The notes beneath the pieces were generated by a model that was not told the DNA's origin, did not search any database, and was given only the letters and a program-made list of their open reading frames with translations. Shown here piece after piece: positions 3,702 through 14,882 of a DNA stretch of 64,000 nt (position 1 is the first letter of the stretch; each line of letters starts with the position of its first letter). The position numbers and the translations under genes are program-made. Source of the stretch: Paraburkholderia ginsengiterrae (GTDB lineage: Bacteria; Pseudomonadota; Gammaproteobacteria; Burkholderiales; Burkholderiaceae); assembly GCF_001645125.1 (NCBI RefSeq), contig NZ_LXKA01000298.1, positions 1 through 64,000 of the forward strand. The letters are read 5' to 3'.

Positions 3702-4994
3702 ATGCTCCGATTCTCGAACCAGCCTCACGTCGCCTCGTATTACGCCGCCACTGCCAACGACACGACCCGCTATCCCACGCTCGACGAAACGATTCACGTC
3801 GACGTGTGCGTGATCGGCGCCGGGTTGACCGGCATTTCCACCGCGTTGAATCTGGCCGAACGCGGCCATTCGGTCGCGGTGCTCGAAGCCTCCAAAGTCG
3901 GATGGGCGGCGAGCGGCCGCAACGGCGGCCAGTTGATCGGCGGTTTCGCGTGCGATATCGACACGTTCGCGAAGTTCATGCCGGCGGACGACGTGAAGCG
4001 TGTTTGGGACATGGGGATCGAAACGCTCGACATCGTCAAGGAACGCGTCGCGAAGCACAACATCGACTGCGATCTCACCATCGGTTATCTGACCGCGGCA
4101 AACAAGCCGCGCGATACCGACGCGCTGCAAAAATGGCGTGACGAAGCGCACCAGCGCTTCGGCTATGACCGCTTCAGTTACGTCGACGCTGACGGCGTCG
4201 GCCAATACGTGCAATCGCAACGCTACCTCGGCGGCCTGTTCGACGCGGACAGCGGCCATCTGCATCCGTTGAACTACACGCTGGGGCTGGCGCGCGCGGC
4301 GCGCGAGGCCGGCGTGCGGATTTTCGAAGATAGCTGCGTCACGGCGCTGCGTGCGGAAAACGGCGGACATGTCGCCGAAACTGAGCGCGGCAAAGTGCAG
4401 GCACGCTTCGTCGTGCTCGCCTGCAACACCTATCTTGGCAAGCTCGCGCCGGATATCGCGAGCAAGATCATGCCCGTGGGCACCTACGTGATCGCCACCG
4501 AACCGCTCGACCCCGACCGTGCCGAAGCGCTGATGCCCGCCAAGGCGGCCGTCTGCGACAGCCGCTTCGTGCTCGATTACTTCCGCCCCGCGCCCGACAA
4601 CCGGCTGCTCTGGGGCGGCAAGGTCAGCTATTCGACATTCGCGCCGCGCAATCTCGGCGAAGCGATGCGCCGCGATATGCTGAAAACTTTCCCGCAACTC
4701 GACGACGTCAAAGTCGACTACGCGTGGGGCGGTTACGTCGACATCACCATGAACCGCGCGCCGCATTTCGGCCGGCTGTCGCCTACCGTGTATTTCGCGC
4801 AAGGCTTCTCGGGCCACGGCGTGAACACGACGGGACTCGCGGGTAAACTGATCGCCGAGGCCATCGATGGCCAGGCGTCGCGCTTCGATCTGTTCGGCAA
4901 GATTCGCCACCGCGACTTTCCTGGCGGCGCTACACTGCGCACCCCTGCCCTCGTGCTCGCCATGGCCTGGTATCGAATGAAGGATCTGCTTTGA
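3702..4994 (+). CDS. puuB: Gamma-glutamylputrescine oxidase-like FAD oxidoreductase, copy 1
   Basis: The 430-residue protein is a DAO-family flavoprotein. The FAD-binding GAGLTG motif lies near residues 32-37 (CVIGAGLTGISTALNLAERG), followed by the GWAASGRNGGQ stretch typical of PuuB/OrdL oxidases and a C-terminal GxSGHG motif near residue 370. In the Puu pathway this enzyme oxidises gamma-glutamylputrescine to its aldehyde with release of ammonia and peroxide. The start at 3702 was chosen because the family begins shortly before the FAD motif, whereas the open frame extends back into the previous gene. The stop shares one base with the next start. Confidence 0.82.
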   Translation: MLRFSNQPHVASYYAATANDTTRYPTLDETIHVDVCVIGAGLTGISTALNLAERGHSVAVLEASKVGWAASGRNGGQLIGGFACDIDTFAKFMPADDVKRVWDMGIETLDIVKERVAKHNIDCDLTIGYLTAANKPRDTDALQKWRDEAHQRFGYDRFSYVDADGVGQYVQSQRYLGGLFDADSGHLHPLNYTLGLARAAREAGVRIFEDSCVTALRAENGGHVAETERGKVQARFVVLACNTYLGKLAPDIASKIMPVGTYVIATEPLDPDRAEALMPAKAAVCDSRFVLDYFRPAPDNRLLWGGKVSYSTFAPRNLGEAMRRDMLKTFPQLDDVKVDYAWGGYVDITMNRAPHFGRLSPTVYFAQGFSGHGVNTTGLAGKLIAEAIDGQASRFDLFGKIRHRDFPGGATLRTPALVLAMAWYRMKDLL

Positions 4995-6316
4995 TGAATG
5001 CGCCGACTCCCGGTTTCAACCCGCTCGACCTTCGCGCCGACGCGCTGATCGCCAACTCCTACTATGAAGCGAGCGCGCCCCGCCCGCCCGTCGACGACCC
5101 TGCGCTCGACGGCGCGCTGGAGGCCGACGTCTGCGTGATCGGCGCGGGCTTCTCCGGCTTGTCGGTGGCGCTGGAGTGCCGGGCACGCGGCTTGTCGGTG
5201 GTCGTGCTCGACGCGCACCGCCCCGGCTGGGGTGCGTCGGGCCGCAACGGCGGGCAGACGCTGGTGGGTTTCGCGAAAGACGAGATCATGGAGCGCCAGC
5301 TCGGACTCGACGGCGCGCGCGCCGCGTGGGCCATGTCGGTGGAAGGCGTGGCGCTGGTGCGCGAGCGCATCGAGCGTTACGGCATTGATTGCGATTTCAC
5401 ATCCGGCTATCTGACGGTCGCCACCAAACCGAAACGTGTGCCGGATTTGCGCGCGTGGATGGAATCGGCCTCGCAACGCTGGGGCTATACGAAACTCTCG
5501 TGGCTCGATACCGACGAGGTCCGTGCGCGCGTCGCATCGAAGCGCTATCTGGCCGGCGTCTACGATCCTTTTTCCGGCCACCTGCATCCGCTCAAGTACT
5601 GCCTCGGCCTCGCCGAAGCGGCTCGCCGCGAAGGCGCGCAACTGTTCGCGCATTCGCCGGTGATCGAGGTCGTGCGCGGCGCGCGGCCTGTCGTGCGCAC
5701 CGCCCGCGGCGAAGTGCGCTGCCGCTTCGTCGCGGCGTGCGGCAATGCGACGATCGGCGACGTGCTGCCGGCGCCGGTAGCCGCGCGCATCGCACCGATC
5801 GCGTCGTATATCGTCGCCACCGAACCGCTCGGCGAGGCGCGCGCCAACGCGCTGATCAAAGGGCGTGAGGCGATTTGCGACAACAACTTCTTCCTCGATT
5901 ATTTCCGCTTGTCGGCGGATCATCGCGTGCTGTTCGGCGGGCGCGCCAGTTCGACCGGGGCTTCACCGGTGCAACTGGGCGAAGAGATTCGCAAGCGCAT
6001 GATCGGCGTGTTCCCGCAACTCGGCGACGTGCGCGTCGACTATGCTTGGGGCGGTTTTGTCGACGTCACGCGTAATCGCGCGCCCGACTTTGGCTCGATC
6101 GATCCCAACTACTTTTACGTGCAAGGGTTTTCGGGGCACGGCGTGGCGCTGACCGGCATTGCCGGACGCGTCATTGCGAAGGCCATGGCCGGCGAGACGG
6201 CGGCCTTCGACCTGTTCGCCCGGTTGCGGCATGCGCGCTTTCCCGGCGGCCCGGCCTTGCGTGGGCCGGCGCTGGAACTCGGCATGATGTATCACCGGAT
6301 TCTCGAGTTGTTTTAA
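4994..6316 (+). CDS. Gamma-glutamylputrescine oxidase-like FAD oxidoreductase, copy 2
   Basis: A second DAO-family flavoprotein of 440 residues, clearly paralogous to its upstream neighbour throughout: CVIGAGFSG FAD motif near residue 48, GWGASGRNGGQ, YAWGGFVD and QGFSGHGV in the same order. It carries about 15 extra N-terminal residues. The ATG at 4994 overlaps the previous stop by one base (TGATG). A TTG at 4991 is in frame but less likely. The retention of two neighbouring copies suggests different polyamine-derived substrates, for example gamma-glutamyl derivatives of putrescine versus another amine; the sequence does not say which. Confidence 0.8.
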   Translation: MNAPTPGFNPLDLRADALIANSYYEASAPRPPVDDPALDGALEADVCVIGAGFSGLSVALECRARGLSVVVLDAHRPGWGASGRNGGQTLVGFAKDEIMERQLGLDGARAAWAMSVEGVALVRERIERYGIDCDFTSGYLTVATKPKRVPDLRAWMESASQRWGYTKLSWLDTDEVRARVASKRYLAGVYDPFSGHLHPLKYCLGLAEAARREGAQLFAHSPVIEVVRGARPVVRTARGEVRCRFVAACGNATIGDVLPAPVAARIAPIASYIVATEPLGEARANALIKGREAICDNNFFLDYFRLSADHRVLFGGRASSTGASPVQLGEEIRKRMIGVFPQLGDVRVDYAWGGFVDVTRNRAPDFGSIDPNYFYVQGFSGHGVALTGIAGRVIAKAMAGETAAFDLFARLRHARFPGGPALRGPALELGMMYHRILELF

Positions 6317-6409
6317 ACCTGCCTCTTCCTGGTACTTGATGACGCACGAAAAGTCCGTAGCTGTACAAAGAAGTCGTCGCCACACACAATGTGATGCGTG
6401 AGGCTGCCG

Positions 6410-7765
6410 CTACAGCCAGACAATAAATCCAGTTCCAGAGAACGAACTGTTGACAGTCAACCGCCATTCATGAGCAGTGGCGATTTCCTTACAGATCGCC
6501 AGTCCCAAACCGGCGCCATCATGCCTCGCATCCGGCGCGCGCCAGAAACGCTTGAACAGGAACGGCATGTACTCCTGCCGGATACCTGGTCCTTCGTCGC
6601 GCACCTCGATTGAGCCCGCGCCGACAATGAGCCATACGGCACTATCGGGCTGCGAAACGTTGATGGCGTTTTCGACGACGTTTTTCAGGAGAATGAATAG
6701 CGCACTCCTGTCCGCCCATATCGATGCCGGCGGATCGGTAGTCTCGAGTTCCAGCTTCACGTGTTTCATGTCCGCTTTGCGCCCGAGATACGCGAGGACG
6801 TCCCGTGCGACCTCCACGAGGTTCACATCGCCGAAGCTGAAGTTCTGCGATTCGCTGACTTCGGCCAGATGCAGCAGCTGCCGAACCTGTCGCGCCATCA
6901 GATCGATCTCGCGAAACAGCAGTTCCTTTCCATTGATTTCAGGCTGCAGTTCAATCTGTGCGCGAATCAAGGTAAGCGGCGTCTGGAGCTCGTGCGCAGC
7001 CGACGCAAGAAATTGCTGTTGCACAGAGAAGCCGTTTTCCAGTCTTCCCAACGCTTCGTTGAACGCGTGAATCAGCGGTTTGATCTCAGTCGGCACACCC
7101 TCTAACGGCAAGCGTGTCCTCAGATTTCGCGGCGTAATCAGCGCAGCGGCGCTCGACGCCTCTCTTAGCGGCTTCAGCACGCGATGCACGGTAAACCTCA
7201 GCGTCACGCCGAAAATGATCGCCGCCAGGAATACGACGATTCTGACGGTGGCCGGAATCTGCTTGACCTTCGAGCCAATCATCGCTTCGAGGAGGCGTGC
7301 GCTTGTTGCAGTCTGGGCATAGAAGACCGCCTGTCCGTGCCGAACCGCAAGCGTCGTAATGTCGAATGGCTTGCCGCGGATCTTCACCCTCTCACTCTTG
7401 TTCACCATCTCGGTGAGATCGCCCTGAACCCACGGTTTATCGTCCCATGCGTCAACTGATGCGAGCAACACGCTTCCCCGCGCGTCGAGCACACGATAGC
7501 CGGCCTCAGTGGGCGCCGCTGTGAACAGCCATGCGCGCTCCGGGGGAAGCTTGACGGAGATCGGACGGCCAGTGCCGTCAAAGGTGATTCCGTCCGCGAC
7601 GTCCTGGGCACCTTCCTTCTGTTCGTGCCGCCCGAGCATCTGCTCCGGAAAATGATTGAACATGTAGGTGATGCCCATGGCCAACGCAGTCAGGCACACC
7701 GCGAGCGCAACGATGCTAGTCACCCACAGGCGCGCGGACAGACTTCGAATCCAGTGATTGAGCAT
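6410..7765 (-). CDS. Two-component sensor histidine kinase, envelope cluster
   Basis: The 451-residue inner-membrane kinase has TM1 near residues 15-35, a periplasmic sensor of about 140 residues, TM2 near 172-192 and a HAMP segment. The phospho-accepting H-box (AAHELQTPL) lies near residues 258-266. A HATPase domain with N box (NVVENAINV), G1 (DEGPG) and G2 (GAGLGLA) follows. The C-terminus is short, ending right after the ATPase fold. It lies downstream of an OmpR-type regulator in the same direction, but a decayed regulator fragment sits between them. It probably phosphorylates the regulator at 8034-8744. The input signal is unknown; the neighbours suggest an outer-membrane stress or cationic signal. 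Confidence 0.85.
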   Translation of the reverse strand: MLNHWIRSLSARLWVTSIVALAVCLTALAMGITYMFNHFPEQMLGRHEQKEGAQDVADGITFDGTGRPISVKLPPERAWLFTAAPTEAGYRVLDARGSVLLASVDAWDDKPWVQGDLTEMVNKSERVKIRGKPFDITTLAVRHGQAVFYAQTATSARLLEAMIGSKVKQIPATVRIVVFLAAIIFGVTLRFTVHRVLKPLREASSAAALITPRNLRTRLPLEGVPTEIKPLIHAFNEALGRLENGFSVQQQFLASAAHELQTPLTLIRAQIELQPEINGKELLFREIDLMARQVRQLLHLAEVSESQNFSFGDVNLVEVARDVLAYLGRKADMKHVKLELETTDPPASIWADRSALFILLKNVVENAINVSQPDSAVWLIVGAGSIEVRDEGPGIRQEYMPFLFKRFWRAPDARHDGAGLGLAICKEIATAHEWRLTVNSSFSGTGFIVWL

Positions 7766-7854
7766 GTCAGATGAGTTACCGTTAATTGACTTCCCTGCGT
7801 GTATCCAGGGTCCAGGCCGGCTAGCAGGTCACCTGATGTGAGTCCGCATCGTTC

Positions 7855-8022
7855 TCACTGCGGGCTAACGGCTGGCGTCAATGAGCGCGACGCCTTGTGA
7901 ACCTTCTCATCAGGTAGCGGACGAAACACGTATCCCTTAGCATGTACTGTGTGGATCAATTCCGGCACGGCTGCATCACCGCAGGCAACGTCGCCGTCGA
8001 CTACCAGGATCAGCTTCTTCAT
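7855..8022 (-). pseudogene. Relic of an OmpR-type response regulator with a large internal deletion
   Basis: A 55-codon frame with an ATG at 8022 reads MKKLILVVDGD, the first strand and acidic pocket of a receiver domain. After about nine residues it continues IHTVHAKGYVFRPLP, the wing and C-terminal hairpin of an OmpR-family winged-helix domain. The rest of the receiver (phospho-Asp, conserved Lys) and the recognition helix are absent. It looks like a second regulator reduced by an in-frame deletion of roughly 170 codons. It sits 12 nt after the intact regulator and 89 nt before the kinase start. A functional micropeptide cannot be excluded. Confidence 0.6.
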
Positions 8023-8033
8023 ATGCCACTCCC

Positions 8034-8744
8034 TTACGACCCGTGCTCACCGCGCGCACCGGTTGACCCGGAGCCCGGCTGCAGCACGAAGCCGGCGCCG
8101 CGGATGTTCGCCAGCCGGGTGGTCGCGCCCACCGCGAGCAGTTTCTTGCGCAGCCGGTGTACGGTCACCTCCAGCGCGTTGGGCGTCACTGCCTCACCCA
8201 ACCCCCACGCGGCATGCTCCAGCGCCGAATGCCGCACCGTCTGGCCGGCCGCGCTGATCAGGCTCAGCAGGATCTGAAGTTCCGCCGGAGCGAGTGAAAC
8301 CGAGTGAGTGGTGCAGCGCAACGCACGTTGCTGGGGATCGACCGTGATATCGGCGTACGACGCAACCAGTGCCGTCAGCGCCGCCGGACGGCGCATCAAG
8401 GTGCGCACACGCGCCACCAGCTCGCTCATGGCGAACGGCTTGGTCACATAGTCGTCGGCGCCGCTCTCGAGTCCGTCCACGCGGTCGTGCAGCGCATCGC
8501 GCGCAGTCAGCATAAGACACGGCGTCATCTGGCCAGCGGCGCGCAGCGTGCGCAGAAAGGTGAGCCCGTCGCCATCCGGCAAGCCGCGGTCCACGATCAG
8601 TACCGCATAGTCGGCTCGGCTCACGCCATATCTGGCCTCGGAGATGTTGTGAAACAGATCGGCCTCGATTCCTGCCGCCACCAGGGCCTGGCGCACCATC
8701 TCTGCCAAACGTTCGTGATCCTCGACAATTGCAACTCGCGACAT
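8034..8744 (-). CDS. OmpR-family response regulator, envelope cluster
   Basis: The 236-residue regulator has a receiver domain in residues 1-115 (acidic pair E8-D9, phospho-acceptor Asp near 52 in IVDRGLPDG, Lys in VTKPF near 102). An OmpR/PhoB winged-helix DNA-binding domain follows (residues about 130-222, with NALEVTVHRLRKKL and the wing NIRGAGFVL). The C-terminus carries a short Gly/Ser tail. It starts 10 nt after the mipA-like stop and is probably co-transcribed with it. The matching direct repeats in front of mipA, mlaA and the small membrane protein gene are the natural candidates for its binding sites, including autoregulation through the mipA promoter. Confidence 0.88.
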   Translation of the reverse strand: MSRVAIVEDHERLAEMVRQALVAAGIEADLFHNISEARYGVSRADYAVLIVDRGLPDGDGLTFLRTLRAAGQMTPCLMLTARDALHDRVDGLESGADDYVTKPFAMSELVARVRTLMRRPAALTALVASYADITVDPQQRALRCTTHSVSLAPAELQILLSLISAAGQTVRHSALEHAAWGLGEAVTPNALEVTVHRLRKKLLAVGATTRLANIRGAGFVLQPGSGSTGARGEHGS

Positions 8745-8754
8745 AACGCAGTGC

Positions 8755-9573
8755 TCAATTGAATTGATACAGGTAGCCGATCCGGGCTCCCGGAATGTAA
8801 CTCCGTCCTACGATCGGGCTGTTGGTGATGCCGCTGGTGGCGTGCGACACGCCCAGGTCCAGAATCACTATCTGATGGCGCGTGAATTTGTAGTCCACAC
8901 GCGTGCCGACCGACACGTCGTAGGCTGCCTTGCCAGTGTACTCGGGGCGCCCCGCTCTCACCTCCGACGACCGCACGCCGTAATAGTAATTGACGTACTT
9001 GGCACTCAGCCATTCGACACCGGCGTGCGGCTCAAAGGAAAAATTGCCATAGTCGAAGGATTTGCTGAAGTCGATTTTAGCGCGCTCGCCCTTATTCCCT
9101 CCCAGCAGATAGTCGCCCTCCAAGGTGCCGAATGCCGTCTTCCAGGCGAGCGCCGGGCCGTACCAGAACGCACCGTTGCGATTTTCCATACCGTTGAGGA
9201 TGGACGCATCATTATTCTTGTAGCCGTCGCCGATTGCAAAACTGCCGCGCAACGCAACGCTTACGTTGTCCCACTTTCCGATCTTCAGGTCGACGGTCGT
9301 GCCAAAAGCATGCACCCATTTGTTATCCAGGGATACCAGCGGAATCGGCGAGAATTTGGTCTTGCCGCTTTTGTAAGGCGACGCCTCAACGCCGGCTCCC
9401 ACGCCAAGACCCCAGTGGGTCACATTCGTGGCGTTGCTGAGCACCGTGAAGCCCGAATCATTCGCCTCGGCTGAATCTTCGCTGCCGCTGTCTGCCCGTA
9501 CGCTACCCGAATGAAGCAGGACTGACACAATGGCCAGCAGCAAAGGGGACCCACGGCGAGAAGTCTTTTTCAC
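8755..9573 (-). CDS. mipA: MipA/OmpV-family outer-membrane protein
   Basis: The 272-residue protein has a signal peptide (residues 1-27, ending SVRA) and a beta-barrel-like body with alternating aromatic residues (GVGAGVEASPYKSGK, FWYGPALAW, GVEWLSAKYVNYYYGV). It ends with IGYLYQFN. This matches MipA/OmpV-type scaffolding or barrel proteins that often accompany two-component systems and answer to antibiotics or acid. The start is GTG at 9573 with AGGA eight bases upstream. It is the first gene of the mipA-regulator-kinase transcript, and a perfect GTAAG direct repeat lies 53 bp before the start. Confidence 0.85.
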   Translation of the reverse strand: MKKTSRRGSPLLLAIVSVLLHSGSVRADSGSEDSAEANDSGFTVLSNATNVTHWGLGVGAGVEASPYKSGKTKFSPIPLVSLDNKWVHAFGTTVDLKIGKWDNVSVALRGSFAIGDGYKNNDASILNGMENRNGAFWYGPALAWKTAFGTLEGDYLLGGNKGERAKIDFSKSFDYGNFSFEPHAGVEWLSAKYVNYYYGVRSSEVRAGRPEYTGKAAYDVSVGTRVDYKFTRHQIVILDLGVSHATSGITNSPIVGRSYIPGARIGYLYQFN

Positions 9574-9625
9574 AGTCGTTCCTGAAGTAGAGGGATGAGG
9601 CGAACTCGACTTTAGGACCGGCCGA

Positions 9626-9641
9626 CTTACTCGTTACTTAC
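9626..9641 (-). promoter_or_regulatory. Direct-repeat response-regulator box upstream of mipA
   Basis: Read on the minus strand the site is GTAAG-N6-GTAAG, two perfect half sites 11 bp apart. This is the geometry of OmpR/PhoB-type regulators that bind head-to-tail on one helix face. Its near edge is 53 bp from the mipA start. A TAAAGT hexamer lies 11 bp further downstream and could be the -10 element, so the box would overlap the -35 position. Confidence 0.6.
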
Positions 9642-9787
9642 TCAAACCATGGTGAACCACCAGAACTGATCTGTTGACGCTATGGCCCCAAATCGCGGAA
9701 GTGAGATTCGAGCTCGGCGGAGCCGGATCCGTGCGCCCCCATACGCCGCACCGCTGCAGTACGTGCCGCAATCGTGCAGCCGCGTGA

Positions 9788-9803
9788 CTTACCCGACACT
9801 TGC
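9788..9803 (-). promoter_or_regulatory. Direct-repeat response-regulator box, middle of divergent region
   Basis: On the minus strand the site is GCAAG-N6-GTAAG, one mismatch from the consensus and the same 11-bp period. The spacer TGTCGG is identical to that of the site at 10777-10792, so these two sites share 15 of 16 bases in opposite orientation. Confidence 0.5.
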
Positions 9804-9899
9804 CATCCGGCTCGCGCAGCCTGCCTGGTTCCGAACGATTCACGCCGAATTAGCGGTAAGGGACTGCAAGGTGATCGTTCAGTGAGCGCGCATTGAGCG

Positions 9900-9915
9900 G
9901 TAAGTCGCCGGTAAG
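9900..9915 (+). promoter_or_regulatory. Direct-repeat response-regulator box upstream of mlaA
   Basis: GTAAG-N6-GTAAG with two perfect half sites, plus-strand orientation, ending 97 bp before the mlaA start. A second G precedes both half sites (GGTAAG), as in the site at 10777. Confidence 0.6.
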
Positions 9916-10012
9916 TCTTCCGGTCGCACCATCGCATCGACCTTCCTTCGCCACGGCAGCAGCGCGGCATGGTTAGTACCCCTTTTGTCATTCCTGTACC
10001 GGGAGTCCCGCG

Positions 10013-10738
10013 ATGAAAAGGCGCGATCTGAATACCCTGGCACTCATCGTCACGGTGCTTCTTTCATCCGGATGTGCCACCGGGCCAGGGCGCACCGCCG
10101 GCGACCCGCTCGAACCGATGAACCGGAGCATTTACTCGTTCAACGACAAGGTCGACACCTATGTGGTCAAACCGACCGCGAAGGCCTATCAGAAAGTGAT
10201 GCCGTCACCGGTGCAAACCGCTGTGCGCAATTTCTTCTCCAACCTTGGCGACATCGGCAACTTTGCCAATGACCTGCTGCAACTGAAAGCAACGGACGCG
10301 AGCGAAGATGTGGTGCGTTTCGCGTTCAACTCCACGCTGGGGATCGGCGGTTTGATCGACTGGGCCACGCCCGCGGGGTTGCCCAAGCACCACCAGGACT
10401 TCGGGCTGACACTCGCTCACTATGGCGTACCGATCGGGCCGTATCTGGTGATGCCTCTGTTCGGACCGAGCAGCGTGCGGGATGTGAGTAACGTCGCCGT
10501 CGACAGCTTCCTCAACCCGTTCGCGGCTGCACCGGTTGCTGTCCAGGCATCGGTGGCCGGTACCCGCTTGGTCAGCACCCGCGCCGATCTGCTAAGCGCG
10601 TCCAATCTGCTTTCACAGGCGGCGATCGATCCCTATTCGTTCACTCGGGACCTCTACCTGCAGAGGCGCCGCATGCTCTCGACGAAATCCGCTGACGCCG
10701 ACAAATTGCCGGACTACGCGGATCCCTCTCCTCAATAA
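10013..10738 (+). CDS. mlaA: MlaA (VacJ) family outer-membrane lipoprotein
   Basis: The 241-residue protein has a lipoprotein signal (lipobox LSSGC, acylated Cys about residue 21). The MlaA landmarks follow: DPLEPMNRSIYSFND near residues 31-45, GIGGLIDWATPAGL and GVPIGPYLVMPLFGPSSVRD. MlaA removes phospholipids from the outer leaflet of the outer membrane and passes them to MlaC. In Burkholderiaceae mlaA is often inside a larger mla operon; here it stands apart, next to lipid A and sugar transferase genes and under a candidate regulator box. That suggests a second, regulated copy, which is inference. Confidence 0.88.
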   Translation: MKRRDLNTLALIVTVLLSSGCATGPGRTAGDPLEPMNRSIYSFNDKVDTYVVKPTAKAYQKVMPSPVQTAVRNFFSNLGDIGNFANDLLQLKATDASEDVVRFAFNSTLGIGGLIDWATPAGLPKHHQDFGLTLAHYGVPIGPYLVMPLFGPSSVRDVSNVAVDSFLNPFAAAPVAVQASVAGTRLVSTRADLLSASNLLSQAAIDPYSFTRDLYLQRRRMLSTKSADADKLPDYADPSPQ

Positions 10739-10776
10739 CTGCAGAGCCGACGCATGACGGTCTGCGCAGCGCACCG

Positions 10777-10792
10777 GTAAGTGTCGGGTAAG
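10777..10792 (+). promoter_or_regulatory. Direct-repeat response-regulator box upstream of the small membrane protein
   Basis: GTAAG-N6-GTAAG, perfect half sites with 11-bp period, ending 53 bp before the ATG at 10845. That distance equals the one found for the mipA site. It implies an internal promoter for the small membrane protein, acyltransferase and glycosyltransferase genes. Confidence 0.6.
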
Positions 10793-10844
10793 CCATGCGC
10801 GTCCAACATGGGAACCTGGATCATCTGATTGTAGGAGCGTGTCC

Positions 10845-11186
10845 ATGAAAGCCAGTACCGCGACCGCACTGCGCGCCAACTTCGTGCTCTGTCTGGTTTC
10901 GATCGCTATCGCGATCGTCCCTTGCGTCAGCCTTGTATCGGTGCTCGGCCTGCTCGACGACGGTGCGCCTATATGGCCGTACCAGGGCAGCATTTTTCTG
11001 CTCGCCGCCCTGATCATGCTGGTGCTGCGCTGGCGAGCGCGGCGGGCGTTCGATGCAGCGAGACAGGCGCATAAGGTTCAGCTGATCGGCAAGCAGGGTC
11101 TTGAAGCATCGATAGACGATGACTGCCCTTTTGCGTGGCTGGTTCAATTGCACCTTGAACTGCGTGGCCATCAATGTATCCATTAA
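10845..11186 (+). CDS. Small two-helix membrane protein, unknown
   Basis: The 113-residue protein has two hydrophobic segments near residues 13-34 and 46-60 and a basic stretch directly after the second (RWRARRAFDAARQ). A C-terminal cytoplasmic tail of about 45 residues has no motif I recognise. The ATG at 10845 is preferred over an in-frame GTG at 10839 because GGAG sits seven bases before it. It is followed within 15 nt by the acyltransferase gene and has its own candidate regulator box, so it is probably part of the envelope response; its function is not known. Confidence 0.65.
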   Translation: MKASTATALRANFVLCLVSIAIAIVPCVSLVSVLGLLDDGAPIWPYQGSIFLLAALIMLVLRWRARRAFDAARQAHKVQLIGKQGLEASIDDDCPFAWLVQLHLELRGHQCIH

Positions 11187-11200
11187 CAACGGACGTCCGC

Positions 11201-12076
11201 ATGAAAAGTCTCGGTTATTGGCTGCTGCTCGGTTTGCTGCGTCTGCTGTCGGTTCTGCCGTACGCGCTGGTTGCAAGAGCCGGCAATGCGCTTGGCGCCA
11301 TGCTGTACATGCTGCCGAGCCACCGCAAGCACGTGGTGCTAGTCAACCTCCGCCTGTGCTTTCCACTGAAGACCGAGCGCAAGCGCGAAGAACTCGCGCT
11401 CGCGCATTTTCAGCACGTTGTACGCAGTTACCTGGAGCGGGGCTTTCAGTGGTTCGGCAGTTTGCGCACGATAGAGCGGCTGGTCGAGTTGGACAGTCGC
11501 ATCGATCTGTACAACCCGGATGCGCCACCGACGATCTTCATGGGCTTTCACTTCGTCGGAATCGAAGTAGGTTGCATGCTGTATTCCTCGCGTCTGCCAG
11601 TCGCCGCGCTCTATACGCGAATGTCGAGCGCGCGTGTCTGCGAGCTCGCGCGGCATCAGCGCGGACGGTTCGGCGCTCACATGATCGAACGCAGCGCGAG
11701 TGCGAAGCATGTCGTCAGACTCCTGCGCTCGGGCATTCCCGTGATGCTGGCAGCGGACATGGATCACGGCACAAAGGGTTCGGTGTTCGCGCCGCTCTTT
11801 GGTGTGCCGGCCTGCACGCTGACTTCCGTGTCACGACTTGCGAAGTTGGCCGGCGCGCGCGTCGTACCCTTTGTGACCGAGGTGTTGCCCGAATTTCGCG
11901 GCTACAAGCTGACCATCTTCGAGCCGCTCGAAAACTATCCCACCTATAGCGAAAGCCACGACGCACGCACAATGAACGCCTTTCTTGAAAAGCAGATCCG
12001 GCGCCTTCCCGACCAGTACTACTGGGTACACAGACGCTTCAAACATCGCCCGGCAGGTACACCAGCGGTCTACTGA
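11201..12076 (+). CDS. LpxL/HtrB-family lipid A (lysophospholipid) acyltransferase
   Basis: The 291-residue protein has an N-terminal membrane anchor (residues 5-25). The catalytic HX4E motif of this family is seen as HFVGIE at residues about 117-122, and the C-terminus ends in QYYWVHRRFKHRP, the usual WxHRRFK signature. Such enzymes add secondary acyl chains to lipid A at the inner membrane, changing outer-membrane permeability and peptide resistance. An in-frame ATG at 11174 overlaps the previous gene, but family alignment favours 11201. Which acyl position is modified cannot be told here. It probably works with its neighbours in outer-membrane remodelling. Confidence 0.82.
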   Translation: MKSLGYWLLLGLLRLLSVLPYALVARAGNALGAMLYMLPSHRKHVVLVNLRLCFPLKTERKREELALAHFQHVVRSYLERGFQWFGSLRTIERLVELDSRIDLYNPDAPPTIFMGFHFVGIEVGCMLYSSRLPVAALYTRMSSARVCELARHQRGRFGAHMIERSASAKHVVRLLRSGIPVMLAADMDHGTKGSVFAPLFGVPACTLTSVSRLAKLAGARVVPFVTEVLPEFRGYKLTIFEPLENYPTYSESHDARTMNAFLEKQIRRLPDQYYWVHRRFKHRPAGTPAVY

Positions 12077-12244
12077 ATTCCAGGGATTGGATCATGCAAG
12101 CCGGCGTATGCCTGACGACGTTTAACCGCCTCGACTGTGTGCGGATTGGCAATGCTGTGTGCACCATTGAGCCAACTTCGTGAAACGCACTTACAATACT
12201 TGACGGGTCGATCCACTGGTGCATATCCGCCAATCGAGCGCTAC

Positions 12245-13420
12245 ATGGCCGAACTCTTCCCTGATGCTGCCCCGCCCCGGTCGGTCCTCATCGTCTGCAC
12301 GGGGCGTATTGGAGACGTGTTGCTCAGCACGCCGGTTGCGCGTTCCCTGAAATCGCACTGGCCCAATGCGCAAATCGACATGCTGGTTTTCGAGGGCACC
12401 GATGGCGTGCTGGAGAGCAACCCCGATATACGCCGAGTGATTCCCATCTCGCCCCGTGCGGGGCTTGCCCAGCGCCTCAACGACGCACGCAAGATCTGGC
12501 GCCAATATGACCTCGGATGTTCGCTGCGGACCTCCAGCCTCGCCAGTTTTCTTTGCTGGATGGCAGGGAGAAAGCGAATCGGCATCGTCGCTTCGCTGCG
12601 CAAAAGCTGCCTTAAGAAATGGATGCTGCACCGGTTCATAGTCGATCGCGATCACGACCTCCATGCCGTCCAAAGCGGTGTCTTGCTGACGACCTTGCTG
12701 GGCATCACGCCCTGCTTTGAAGTCGTGCCGCCCGCGGTGCGCAGCCAGCCGGCGCAGCTCGCGCATCTCGAGCAGTCGCTCGCATCAATTGCCGGCAAGC
12801 CCTACGCAGTAGTGCACATGTATCCGCGGTATGCCTACAAGATGTGGCACGCCGAAGGTTGGATCGCCGTGCTGGCGTTCCTGCACGCACGCGGCTATGC
12901 CGTTGTGCTGACAGGCGGCCCTGCCGCAGCCGAAGTGACGTATGCACGCACTATTCGTGAGCGTGCCGGAATCGAAACAGTCGATGTGGTCGGCAAGCTG
13001 AGCCTCGCGGCAACCGCCGAAGTGATTCGACGCGCGCGGCTCTTCCTCGGACCTGACACCTCGGCCTCGCATATCGCCGCTGCCACGGGCACCCCGACCC
13101 TCGCTCTGTTCGGCCCGTCGAATCCGGTTCGCTGGGGACCGTGGCCAAAGGGCTGGACCGGCAGCAGTCCCTGGATAACTTCCGGGTCCGGGCGGCGCGG
13201 CAACGTCTATCTGCTTCAGGGCGCCGGCGCATGCGTGCCCTGCAAGCTGGAGGGCTGCGAAGGCCACGTCGATAGCGGGAGCGATTGCCTGTTGACGCTT
13301 GACGCCGCCCGGGTAATAGATGCCGCGACAGAGTTGCTGGGCATTGCACCCCGTATTACGCCCGATCAGCGACGACGCTTTCCAATCGCCACGCAACCCT
13401 TTCGCCGGTGCACGCCTTGA
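12245..13420 (+). CDS. Glycosyltransferase family 9 (heptosyltransferase-like)
   Basis: The protein has about 391 residues in two Rossmann-like halves. The N-terminal half begins SVLIVCTGRIGDVLLSTPVARSLK, the hallmark of ADP-heptose:LPS heptosyltransferases. The C-terminal half has the donor-site region FLGPDTSASHIAAATGTPTLALFGPSNPVRWGPW. Such enzymes extend the LPS core on the cytoplasmic face of the inner membrane. The ATG at 12245 is chosen from the family start, but its ribosome site is weak and upstream in-frame GTG/ATG codons exist. A Cys-rich segment near residues 325-345 (CVPCKLEGCEGH) resembles one seen in some family members. Confidence 0.8.
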   Translation: MAELFPDAAPPRSVLIVCTGRIGDVLLSTPVARSLKSHWPNAQIDMLVFEGTDGVLESNPDIRRVIPISPRAGLAQRLNDARKIWRQYDLGCSLRTSSLASFLCWMAGRKRIGIVASLRKSCLKKWMLHRFIVDRDHDLHAVQSGVLLTTLLGITPCFEVVPPAVRSQPAQLAHLEQSLASIAGKPYAVVHMYPRYAYKMWHAEGWIAVLAFLHARGYAVVLTGGPAAAEVTYARTIRERAGIETVDVVGKLSLAATAEVIRRARLFLGPDTSASHIAAATGTPTLALFGPSNPVRWGPWPKGWTGSSPWITSGSGRRGNVYLLQGAGACVPCKLEGCEGHVDSGSDCLLTLDAARVIDAATELLGIAPRITPDQRRRFPIATQPFRRCTP

Positions 13421-13483
13421 AATGACCAATGCCGGTGGTCGTCCGGGGAAAGCAAACCCCGTCCCTTCTTTGGAGATCTCCTT

Positions 13484-13786
13484 ATGAGCGCCCTTCGTTT
13501 TGCAGTGCCCCTTATCCTGCTCACTGCCGCGTGTTCGCCAGCGTGGCCGGACGCCAATGTTCATCTCGCGCAAACGGCGCAACCCGATACGCGTGCACCC
13601 ACACCCGTCGCCGTGAACGATCGGAACTCCATCGCACCGCCCGCGAATGCGCCGGTCATTAGCGTCGGGGTGAGCGATCCCAACACGCAGCTTATCCTGC
13701 CGTGGTTCCTCACCGATATCATCAATGCGATCAATACGCGGGCATCAGTCAACGATCTTTTGCGCACTGTCGGACGGGGCATCTAG
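13484..13786 (+). CDS. Small predicted lipoprotein, unknown function
   Basis: The 100-residue protein begins with a lipoprotein signal (LLTAAC, acylated Cys about residue 17). A Pro/Ala-rich linker follows, then a short hydrophobic stretch near residues 75-83 (LILPWFLTDIINAI). GGAG precedes the ATG by about seven bases. I recognise no domain. The position downstream of LPS-core genes is the only functional hint. Confidence 0.65.
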   Translation: MSALRFAVPLILLTAACSPAWPDANVHLAQTAQPDTRAPTPVAVNDRNSIAPPANAPVISVGVSDPNTQLILPWFLTDIINAINTRASVNDLLRTVGRGI

Positions 13787-13871
13787 TCTCTTAAAGTCCC
13801 GCGCAATCCCGCCGGCGTCATCGGGTACCATACTGTCATACTATTTGCTTGCCGCTTTTGAGGAGGCGCCG

Positions 13872-14882
13872 ATGACAACTCAACTCACGCCCGAATTCGC
13901 ATCCCGATTCGCCAATCTCGCGCTTGCCCATCTCACACGCGAATACCCGAACAAGCTGACGCATTCGCTCGCCGGGCCGCAGGACGTGCAAGGACCGCGC
14001 GCGCTGCATCCGATTTTTTACGGCAGCTACGACTGGCATTCGTGCGTGCACGGCTACTGGTTGATCCTGCATCTGCTCGAGCGCTTTCCCGATCTGCCTG
14101 AAGCGGCACGCATCGTCGCGGTGGTCGACGAGCATTTCACCGATGCCAATGTGGCCGGCGAGCGCGCGTATCTCGATCTGCCGCACAACCGTGGTTTCGA
14201 GCGTCCGTATGGCTGGGCGTGGCTGCTCGCGCTCAGCGCCCAGCTCGAGTCGCTGAAACTCTCGGACGCGGCACGCTGGTCCAGAACCTTTGCACCGCTC
14301 ACCGCGGCCTTTGTCGAACGCTTCGAGGAGTTTCTGCCGAAAGCAACCTATCCGTTGCGCGTGGGGACGCACTTCAACATGGCGTTCGCGCTGGCGCTCA
14401 CGCTGGATTTCGCCCGGCAAACGTCGCGTGAATCGCTTGAAGCGCTGATCGTGAATACCGCGGAGCGCTGGTTCCTGAACGACGTCGCGTGTCAGGCATG
14501 GGAGCCCGCGGGCGACGAATTCCTCTCGCCCGCGTTAATGGAGGCGGAGCTGATGCGGCGCGTGCTGCCGCCCGCGCAATTCGTCGACTGGTTCGGGCGC
14601 TTTCTGCCGGATCTCGGCGCGAAAAAGCCCGCCACGCTGTTCGAGCCGGTCACCGTGACGGATCGCACCGACGGCAAGATCGCGCATCTCGACGGCTTGA
14701 ATCTCAGCCGCGCATGGTGCCAGCGCTCGCTGGCGCGCGCGCTGCCCACTGGCGACGTGCGCCGGGCGGTGCTATTCGACTCGGCCGAGCGGCATTTGCA
14801 AAGCGCGCTGCCGCACGTGGCTGGCGACTACATGGGCGAACATTGGCTGGGCACGTTCGCCACGCTGGCTCTCGAGGCCTGA
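13872..14882 (+). CDS. DUF2891 family protein
   Basis: The 336-residue protein has the features I associate with DUF2891: GSYDWHSCVHGYW near residues 53-65, LPHNRGFERPYGWAWLL near 100-116, GTHFNMAFAL near 158-167, and SRAWCQRSLARALP near the C-terminus. The fold is probably an alpha/alpha barrel related to glycosidases or sugar-modifying enzymes, with conserved His and Trp residues, but no activity is established. No signal peptide is present, so it should be cytoplasmic. The start has a near-perfect AGGAGG ribosome site; the open frame upstream of it overlaps the preceding lipoprotein gene and is not used. Confidence 0.8.
   Translation: MTTQLTPEFASRFANLALAHLTREYPNKLTHSLAGPQDVQGPRALHPIFYGSYDWHSCVHGYWLILHLLERFPDLPEAARIVAVVDEHFTDANVAGERAYLDLPHNRGFERPYGWAWLLALSAQLESLKLSDAARWSRTFAPLTAAFVERFEEFLPKATYPLRVGTHFNMAFALALTLDFARQTSRESLEALIVNTAERWFLNDVACQAWEPAGDEFLSPALMEAELMRRVLPPAQFVDWFGRFLPDLGAKKPATLFEPVTVTDRTDGKIAHLDGLNLSRAWCQRSLARALPTGDVRRAVLFDSAERHLQSALPHVAGDYMGEHWLGTFATLALEA

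Follow-up and report, generated by a model that had tools for sequence, protein, structure and literature searches.

A GTAAG direct repeat as the candidate operator of a PmrA-like, MipA-coupled envelope regulon in Paraburkholderia ginsengiterrae and its relatives

Envelope genes and repeat sites in the window

The window analysed here, a stretch of 64,000 nucleotides from Paraburkholderia ginsengiterrae, carries genes for a MipA/OmpV outer-membrane protein, an OmpR/PhoB-family response regulator (RR) and a sensor histidine kinase (HK), followed on the opposite strand by genes for an MlaA-family lipoprotein, a small membrane protein (Smp), a lipid A acyltransferase, a glycosyltransferase and a small putative lipoprotein (Table 1). 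RR has a receiver and a winged-helix effector domain, both above the Pfam cut-offs (PF00072, PF00486). The NCBIfam matches shown for HK (CztS/SilS/CopS-type, PmrB, QseC) all fall below cut-offs. Smp is without a known family, and neither it nor the small lipoprotein has any match in Pfam or NCBIfam; the lipoprotein gene is a cluster neighbour in the related locus L163 too and is a candidate member of the regulon. No Rfam match was found across 6300-13900. The genome holds three MlaA-family and three LpxL-type genes, window copies included, so the window mlaA and lpxL are extra copies of each; the mlaA survey covered this genome and the Smp clusters of relatives.

Four GTAAG-N6-GTAAG sites (boxes) had been noted in this region, and they lie where they had been placed, three exact and one with a single mismatch, with the stated half-site period of 11 bp. 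The stated distance of 53 bp from box end to the mipA and Smp starts is right as an offset, since 52 bp separate box and start codon; this gap applies to mipA (GTG 9573) and equally to Smp if its start is ATG 10845. At up to one mismatch, the 64-kb window holds four matches to the box against 0.63 expected, a count reached in 1 of 100 shuffles. The proposed genome-wide frequency check gave no excess: the exact box stands at background (8 against 12 for a reversed control), and the longer form GTAAGTNNNNGGTAAG at up to one mismatch occurs 11 times against 31 for the control. With counts at or below control, genome-wide abundance is uninformative, and the signal of the box is its position and conservation rather than its number. 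Three of the genome's eight exact boxes fall within this 1.2-kb stretch. Upstream of the mlaA box, the segment GGTAAGGGACTGCAAGGTGATC at 9855-9876 (+) is largely kept in L162 and L163 and possibly represents further half-sites with a 10-bp period.

Table 1. Genes, boxes and promoter elements in the window, and the other exact boxes of the genome
Feature	Position	Strand	Remark
Sensor histidine kinase (HK)	6410..7765	-	HAMP, HisKA, HATPase (Pfam)
Remnant of second OmpR-type regulator (RR2)	7855..8022	-	55-codon ORF, in frame
OmpR/PhoB-family response regulator (RR), PmrA-like	8034..8744	-	Pfam, NCBIfam, PDB match
MipA/OmpV outer-membrane protein	8755..9573	-	GTG start; PF06629, 5.4e-37
-10-like TAAAGT, mipA promoter	9609..9614	-	11 bp past box
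Box of mipA-RR-HK	9626..9641	-	exact
Relic leader of lost OMF-MFP-RND efflux operon	9695..9875	-	150/178 identical to L163 OMF leader
-10-like CACGAT, relic efflux promoter	9771-9776	-
Relic box of lost efflux operon	9788..9803	-	one mismatch (GCAAG...GTAAG)
Box of mlaA	9900..9915	+	exact
-10-like CACCAT, mlaA promoter	9927-9932	+
MlaA-family lipoprotein	10013..10738	+	PF04333
Box of Smp operon	10777..10792	+	exact
-10-like CAACAT, Smp promoter	10804-10809	+
Small membrane protein (Smp)	10845..11186	+	start probably ATG 10845
LpxL/HtrB-type lipid A acyltransferase	11174..12076	+	NF005399 above cut-off
LPS heptosyltransferase-like glycosyltransferase (GT9)	12137..13420	+	PF01075; TIGR02201 163 bits vs cut-off 170.2
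Small putative lipoprotein	13484..13786	+	candidate regulon member
Other exact box	C145:106057		before acetate-CoA ligase gene (family checked)
Other exact box	C13		inside arylformamidase gene
Other exact box	C1		between parB-like and ATP-synthase-like genes (label from translations)
Other exact box	C145:93574		phage-like stretch (label from translations)
Other exact box	C350		local repeat (label from translations)

Conservation of the box and its promoter spacing

At a threshold of E <= 1e-60, RR is found in 33 of 145 genomes of the genus, at 37 places. Comparison of the related Paraburkholderia promoters upheld the predicted repeat, an exact GTAAG-N6-GTAAG being present at all 37 places, either in the mipA promoter or beside RR where mipA is gone. 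In this set the L105 box belongs to a mipA gene 3.5 kb from RR, L077 and L109 are without mipA, and L082 has a piece of it. The alignment of the 37 loci was anchored on the exact sites, with no locus dropped for want of one. Both half-sites are present in 37/37, with a T after them in 36 and 37 loci, respectively; the upstream flank is looser, most of its columns agreeing in 11-22 of the 37 and the base adjoining the box in 28, and conservation is fair (up to 33) in some columns of the spacer and leader. The RR-adjacent MipA proteins share 58-76% identity with that of the window. Where the mipA match starts from residue 1 (29 of the 37 loci), box and mipA are 46-60 bp apart (median 52).

Outside the genus, an exact box stands at 20/20 RR loci in other genera of the family (20 of the 31 non-genus genomes with a match were examined). 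Records of a plasmid collection have the box in 7/7 cases, one being the same as a genus locus; they span Burkholderia, Paraburkholderia, Variovorax, Achromobacter and Eleftheria, and the Variovorax, Achromobacter and Eleftheria loci keep the box at 53-62% RR identity. The order level comprised 11 non-own loci, of which L340 and L346 were set aside, since locus or contig stops short of the promoter. Among the remaining nine, five have the box: in three it precedes a mipA-like gene, and in L341 and L345 it precedes something else or RR itself, L345 having 10-bp spacing. The four others, with RR identities of 49-51%, show no match to the box within one mismatch over the 1.5 kb ahead of RR. Since the sequences are related, all these box counts, and the p-values given below, overstate independence.

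Ten mipA homologues outside the system (49-59% identity) served as controls; chosen as neither RR-linked nor box-bearing (eight in RR-less genomes and the second copies in G038 and G094), they have no box within 300 bp even at two mismatches. In seven of these ten loci (L237-L243) a visibly different OmpR-type regulator, with MTYMPHVLVVDDEEDIRSLL... or a near variant, lies divergent from the box-less mipA, a second MipA-linked two-component system. Boxed mipA copies away from RR occur in G030, G052, G121 and, broken, in G099. Genomes with RR carry 3.94 boxes on average versus 1.60 in those lacking it (Mann-Whitney p 7e-14), an excess that is partly the mipA box itself; the reversed control shows no rise (0.97 versus 1.52).

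The Smp gene follows the same distribution. Homologues occur in 20/145 genomes of the genus, 19 of which also carry RR (Fisher p 5e-14). They amount to 26 matches, of which 19 are preceded by a box at no more than 90 bp and four more by one farther up: exact boxes end 112-160 bp upstream of Smp in L126, L127 and L132, and a one-mismatch box lies 100 bp ahead of it in L129. L128, from the sole RR-less genome with Smp (G086), has the second half-site only, and the partial Smp matches of L133 and L134 have no box. Among the 19 Smp boxes, four have a T in place of a G in their first half-site, and in one of these both half-sites are so altered. In L170 (8757-8822) and L171 (10409-10479), divergent exact boxes lie between the Smp homologue and another response-regulator gene. 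The mlaA gene is preceded by a box in all seven mlaA-Smp clusters examined, namely the window and six relatives.

Downstream of the box a second constant element appears. All 37 RR loci of the genus have TANAGT 11 bp past the box, and the general form box-N11-NANNNT is present in the 37 mipA-set loci and in 59 of 60 box-bearing promoters outside that set, the single exception standing ahead of a broken mipA. The 60 promoters include the 19 Smp promoters with a box within 90 bp, and L250, which was grouped with mipA by its leader alone and later gave no mipA match. Sigma70 -10 elements depend above all on an A at -11 and a T at -7, and NANNNT, with A and T at positions 2 and 6, is sigma70-like in this respect. 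With the hexamer 11 bp downstream, the box would cover the -35 region, where a class II activator would sit. Two further sites were observed: L250 has, at 4720, a box with a mipA-type leader, perhaps another fossil promoter, and in L251, where mipA and RR seem to be missing, a box at 7494 with a mipA-type -10 precedes a kinase gene by about 230 bp.

The mismatched site at 9788 had been listed as one of the four sites. It is a real box-like match, but the layout in relatives points to a promoter left over from an RND efflux operon. In L163 (G121) a second box, divergent from that of mlaA, heads an operon for an outer-membrane factor, membrane-fusion protein and AcrB-type pump, which is followed by a box and mipA. 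In G038 (L102, L167) the matching stretch, with a pump gene of that kind, is flanked immediately by the mlaA box on one side and by the mipA-RR-RR2-HK operon on the other. Three of the six mlaA clusters of relatives have such a divergent pump box. Beside the relic leader of the window, 7 bp from it, positions 9687-9574 match the leader of L163 mipA (92/113). Most simply read, these matches mean that the lineage of the window lost the pump operon by deletion and kept its promoter, now mismatched.

The response regulator and the reading of the box

The best PDB match of RR is PmrA/BasR, and its score against the PmrA equivalog NF007928 is 170 bits, below the cut-off of 330. The phospho-acceptor Asp is present in RR (VDRGLP) and in all 18 other aligned RRs, control included. 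All 12 aligned RRs from box-bearing loci have the recognition helix TP(N/S)A...HR(L/I)R(R/K)KL, and all four from box-less loci have TPKA...HRLRGKL. The first changed position aligns with Asn188 of Klebsiella PmrA and the second with Glu199; in the PmrA study, Asn188 and Thr187 are among the side chains that contact DNA in the model, and Glu199 is named as possibly base-specific (PMC3973317). The helix residues thus appear to covary with the box, a correlation across 16 sequences in which three of the four box-less RRs come from one family.

RR had been taken as the only OmpR-type regulator nearby. It is one indeed, and the correction concerns the remnant of another, RR2, between RR and HK, in which about the first 17 and the last 38 residues survive. 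A full-length RR2 follows RR in eight of 39 loci surveyed (L093, L094, L095, L098, L100, L102, L109 and L176), and in seven of these loci its place is between RR and HK; no HK was found in L109. In all eight, Met replaces the phospho-acceptor Asp. Fragments are kept in several other loci, RR2 having been repeatedly reduced or lost. Our guess is that RR2 acts as a phosphorylation-independent partner or antagonist of RR.

Taken together, the comparison makes it highly likely that the box is the operator through which RR activates mipA-RR-HK, mlaA and the smp-lpxL-heptosyltransferase genes. This core of the original prediction is supported by comparison, the box going with RR across genera, preceding mipA, mlaA and Smp in relatives and keeping a constant distance to the -10-like element, and four corrections apply to it. 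We infer the following course. Envelope damage, of a kind produced by polymyxin-like agents, would be signalled through HK by phosphotransfer to RR, and the box genes would be switched on, among them the sensor operon itself. Phosphorylated RR would probably bind the two half-sites as a dimer at their 11-bp spacing, standing in for a -35 element, and would recruit sigma70 RNA polymerase to the -10 element 11 bp downstream. Activation of its own mipA-RR-HK operon would form a positive loop, in which the outer-membrane barrel MipA may help to sense the stress, and the extra mlaA and the smp-lpxL-heptosyltransferase genes would be activated alongside. In some relatives, the same box would bring an RND efflux operon under this control.

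Could the box instead belong to a widely present other regulator, with RR using a site of its own that escaped notice? Among 30 box loci inspected genus-wide, 19 lie by acs (acetate-CoA ligase), most of them in RR-less genomes, five in the arylformamidase gene, three at mipA or Smp and three at none of the genes tried. The acs box, GTAAGT-N4-RGTAAG, occurs in many genomes of the genus, RR-less ones included (loci among L045-L073; L004 at about 1501-1516), and the word may therefore be recognised by another factor as well. The acs sites differ from those of the module in their surroundings, however. A -10-like hexamer lies at 10 bp in 19/20 of them (for seven of the 20, a distance of 11 bp fits as well) against N11 in 59/60 module sites, and 19/20 continue with TTG..., which module sites do not. 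In many acs sites the second half-site and the following CTTA form TAAG-N8-CTTA. Its presence without RR and the hexamer at 10 bp suggest that the acs site probably has another reader. For the module itself, the excess of boxes tracks RR, boxes sit in the promoter of RR's own operon, and the recognition-helix residues covary with the box; we therefore regard a foreign reader of the module boxes as improbable.

Scarcely different in likelihood, and if anything a shade lower, is that the box is a repressor operator, where RR or its unphosphorylated form would block polymerase at -35 until stress relieves it. Repressors also use positions over the -35 region, as the box does. However, outside mipA the -10 hexamers mostly resemble TATAAT only weakly and the box lies at the usual -35 distance, which we read as the layout of an activated promoter, and the rigid 11-bp spacing suggests contact with polymerase like that at PhoB-type promoters. 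Chance clustering of a short, GTAAG-rich word would agree with genome-wide counts not above control, but we reject it as having next to no probability because position and exact half-sites are fixed in 37/37 and 20/20 loci while spacer and flanks are more variable.

Relation to known systems and extent of the regulon

RR thus most probably works as an activator at the box, and the system closest to it in sequence is PmrAB (BasRS), whose regulator is likewise of the OmpR/PhoB family and provides the best-scoring NCBIfam model as well as the PDB match. The PmrA box, CTTAAG-N5-XTTAAT (PMC3973317), shares head-to-tail half-sites and the 11-bp period with the box described here, which reads CTTAC-N6-CTTAC on the other strand. 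The half-sites differ, being CTTAA there and CTTAC here; the PmrA-type CTTAA is absent from the mipA promoters, 37/37 of which have CTTAC (GTAAG). Targets differ too: PmrAB controls arn/pbgP, whereas the box genes here encode MipA, MlaA, Smp, LpxL, the heptosyltransferase and efflux components.

ParRS of Pseudomonas aeruginosa offers a functional parallel. According to its report, MipA and MipB are proposed co-sensors of polymyxin, ParR activates mipBA and mexXY, and most surveyed mipA loci have a two-component system beside mipA (PMC10936184). Both systems couple a MipA-family protein to a two-component system, mipA adjoining RR and HK here, and the ParRS regulon, like the box genes of relatives, joins mipA and an RND pump; the systems differ in arrangement, mipA being collinear here with RR and HK. 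No mipB is annotated beside mipA in L333, L334, L335 and L339, and none was found among the eight window proteins scanned. By analogy, we propose that the regulatory logic may be the same as that of ParRS-MipBA. BesRS of Burkholderia thailandensis, found through the beta-lactamase gene penL, is an envelope-stress two-component system with a MipA-family gene in its regulon (PMC9426598); the cis region given there, TGCGGCCACAAATTTGCACGCA, is without the GTAAG repeat, unlike the box. In the open-licence PMC literature, nothing on the box or the regulon was recognised among the matches listed.

An uncharacterised two-component system gains a concrete candidate operator, a promoter rule and a list of targets. 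Burkholderiales are known for their polymyxin tolerance, and one switch would link MipA, lipid-asymmetry repair, lipid A acylation and core glycosylation, with efflux added in relatives. Regarding the membership originally claimed, mipA, mlaA and Smp are retained, their boxes being kept in relatives, and the extent needs widening, because in relatives the box also heads the RND pump and perhaps a PAP2 phosphatase gene. Going further, we somewhat favour a modular envelope-defence regulon of the Burkholderiales, in which a MipA-coupled PmrA-like system would use one code, GTAAG-N6-GTAAG-N11-NANNNT, before effector operons kept lineage by lineage (MipA, RND efflux, MlaA, Smp-LpxL-heptosyltransferase, perhaps PAP2), with boxes outliving lost genes and the phospho-Asp-less regulator once present in more lineages. 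That regulator and the fossil promoter illustrate the gain and loss of such regulons. In Variovorax boronicumulans (L333, 6424-6494), divergent boxes, one exact and one with a mismatch, lie beside the mipA-RR-HK operon, flanked by a hypothetical gene and a gene annotated as a PAP2-family phosphatase, both of them possible further members of the regulon.
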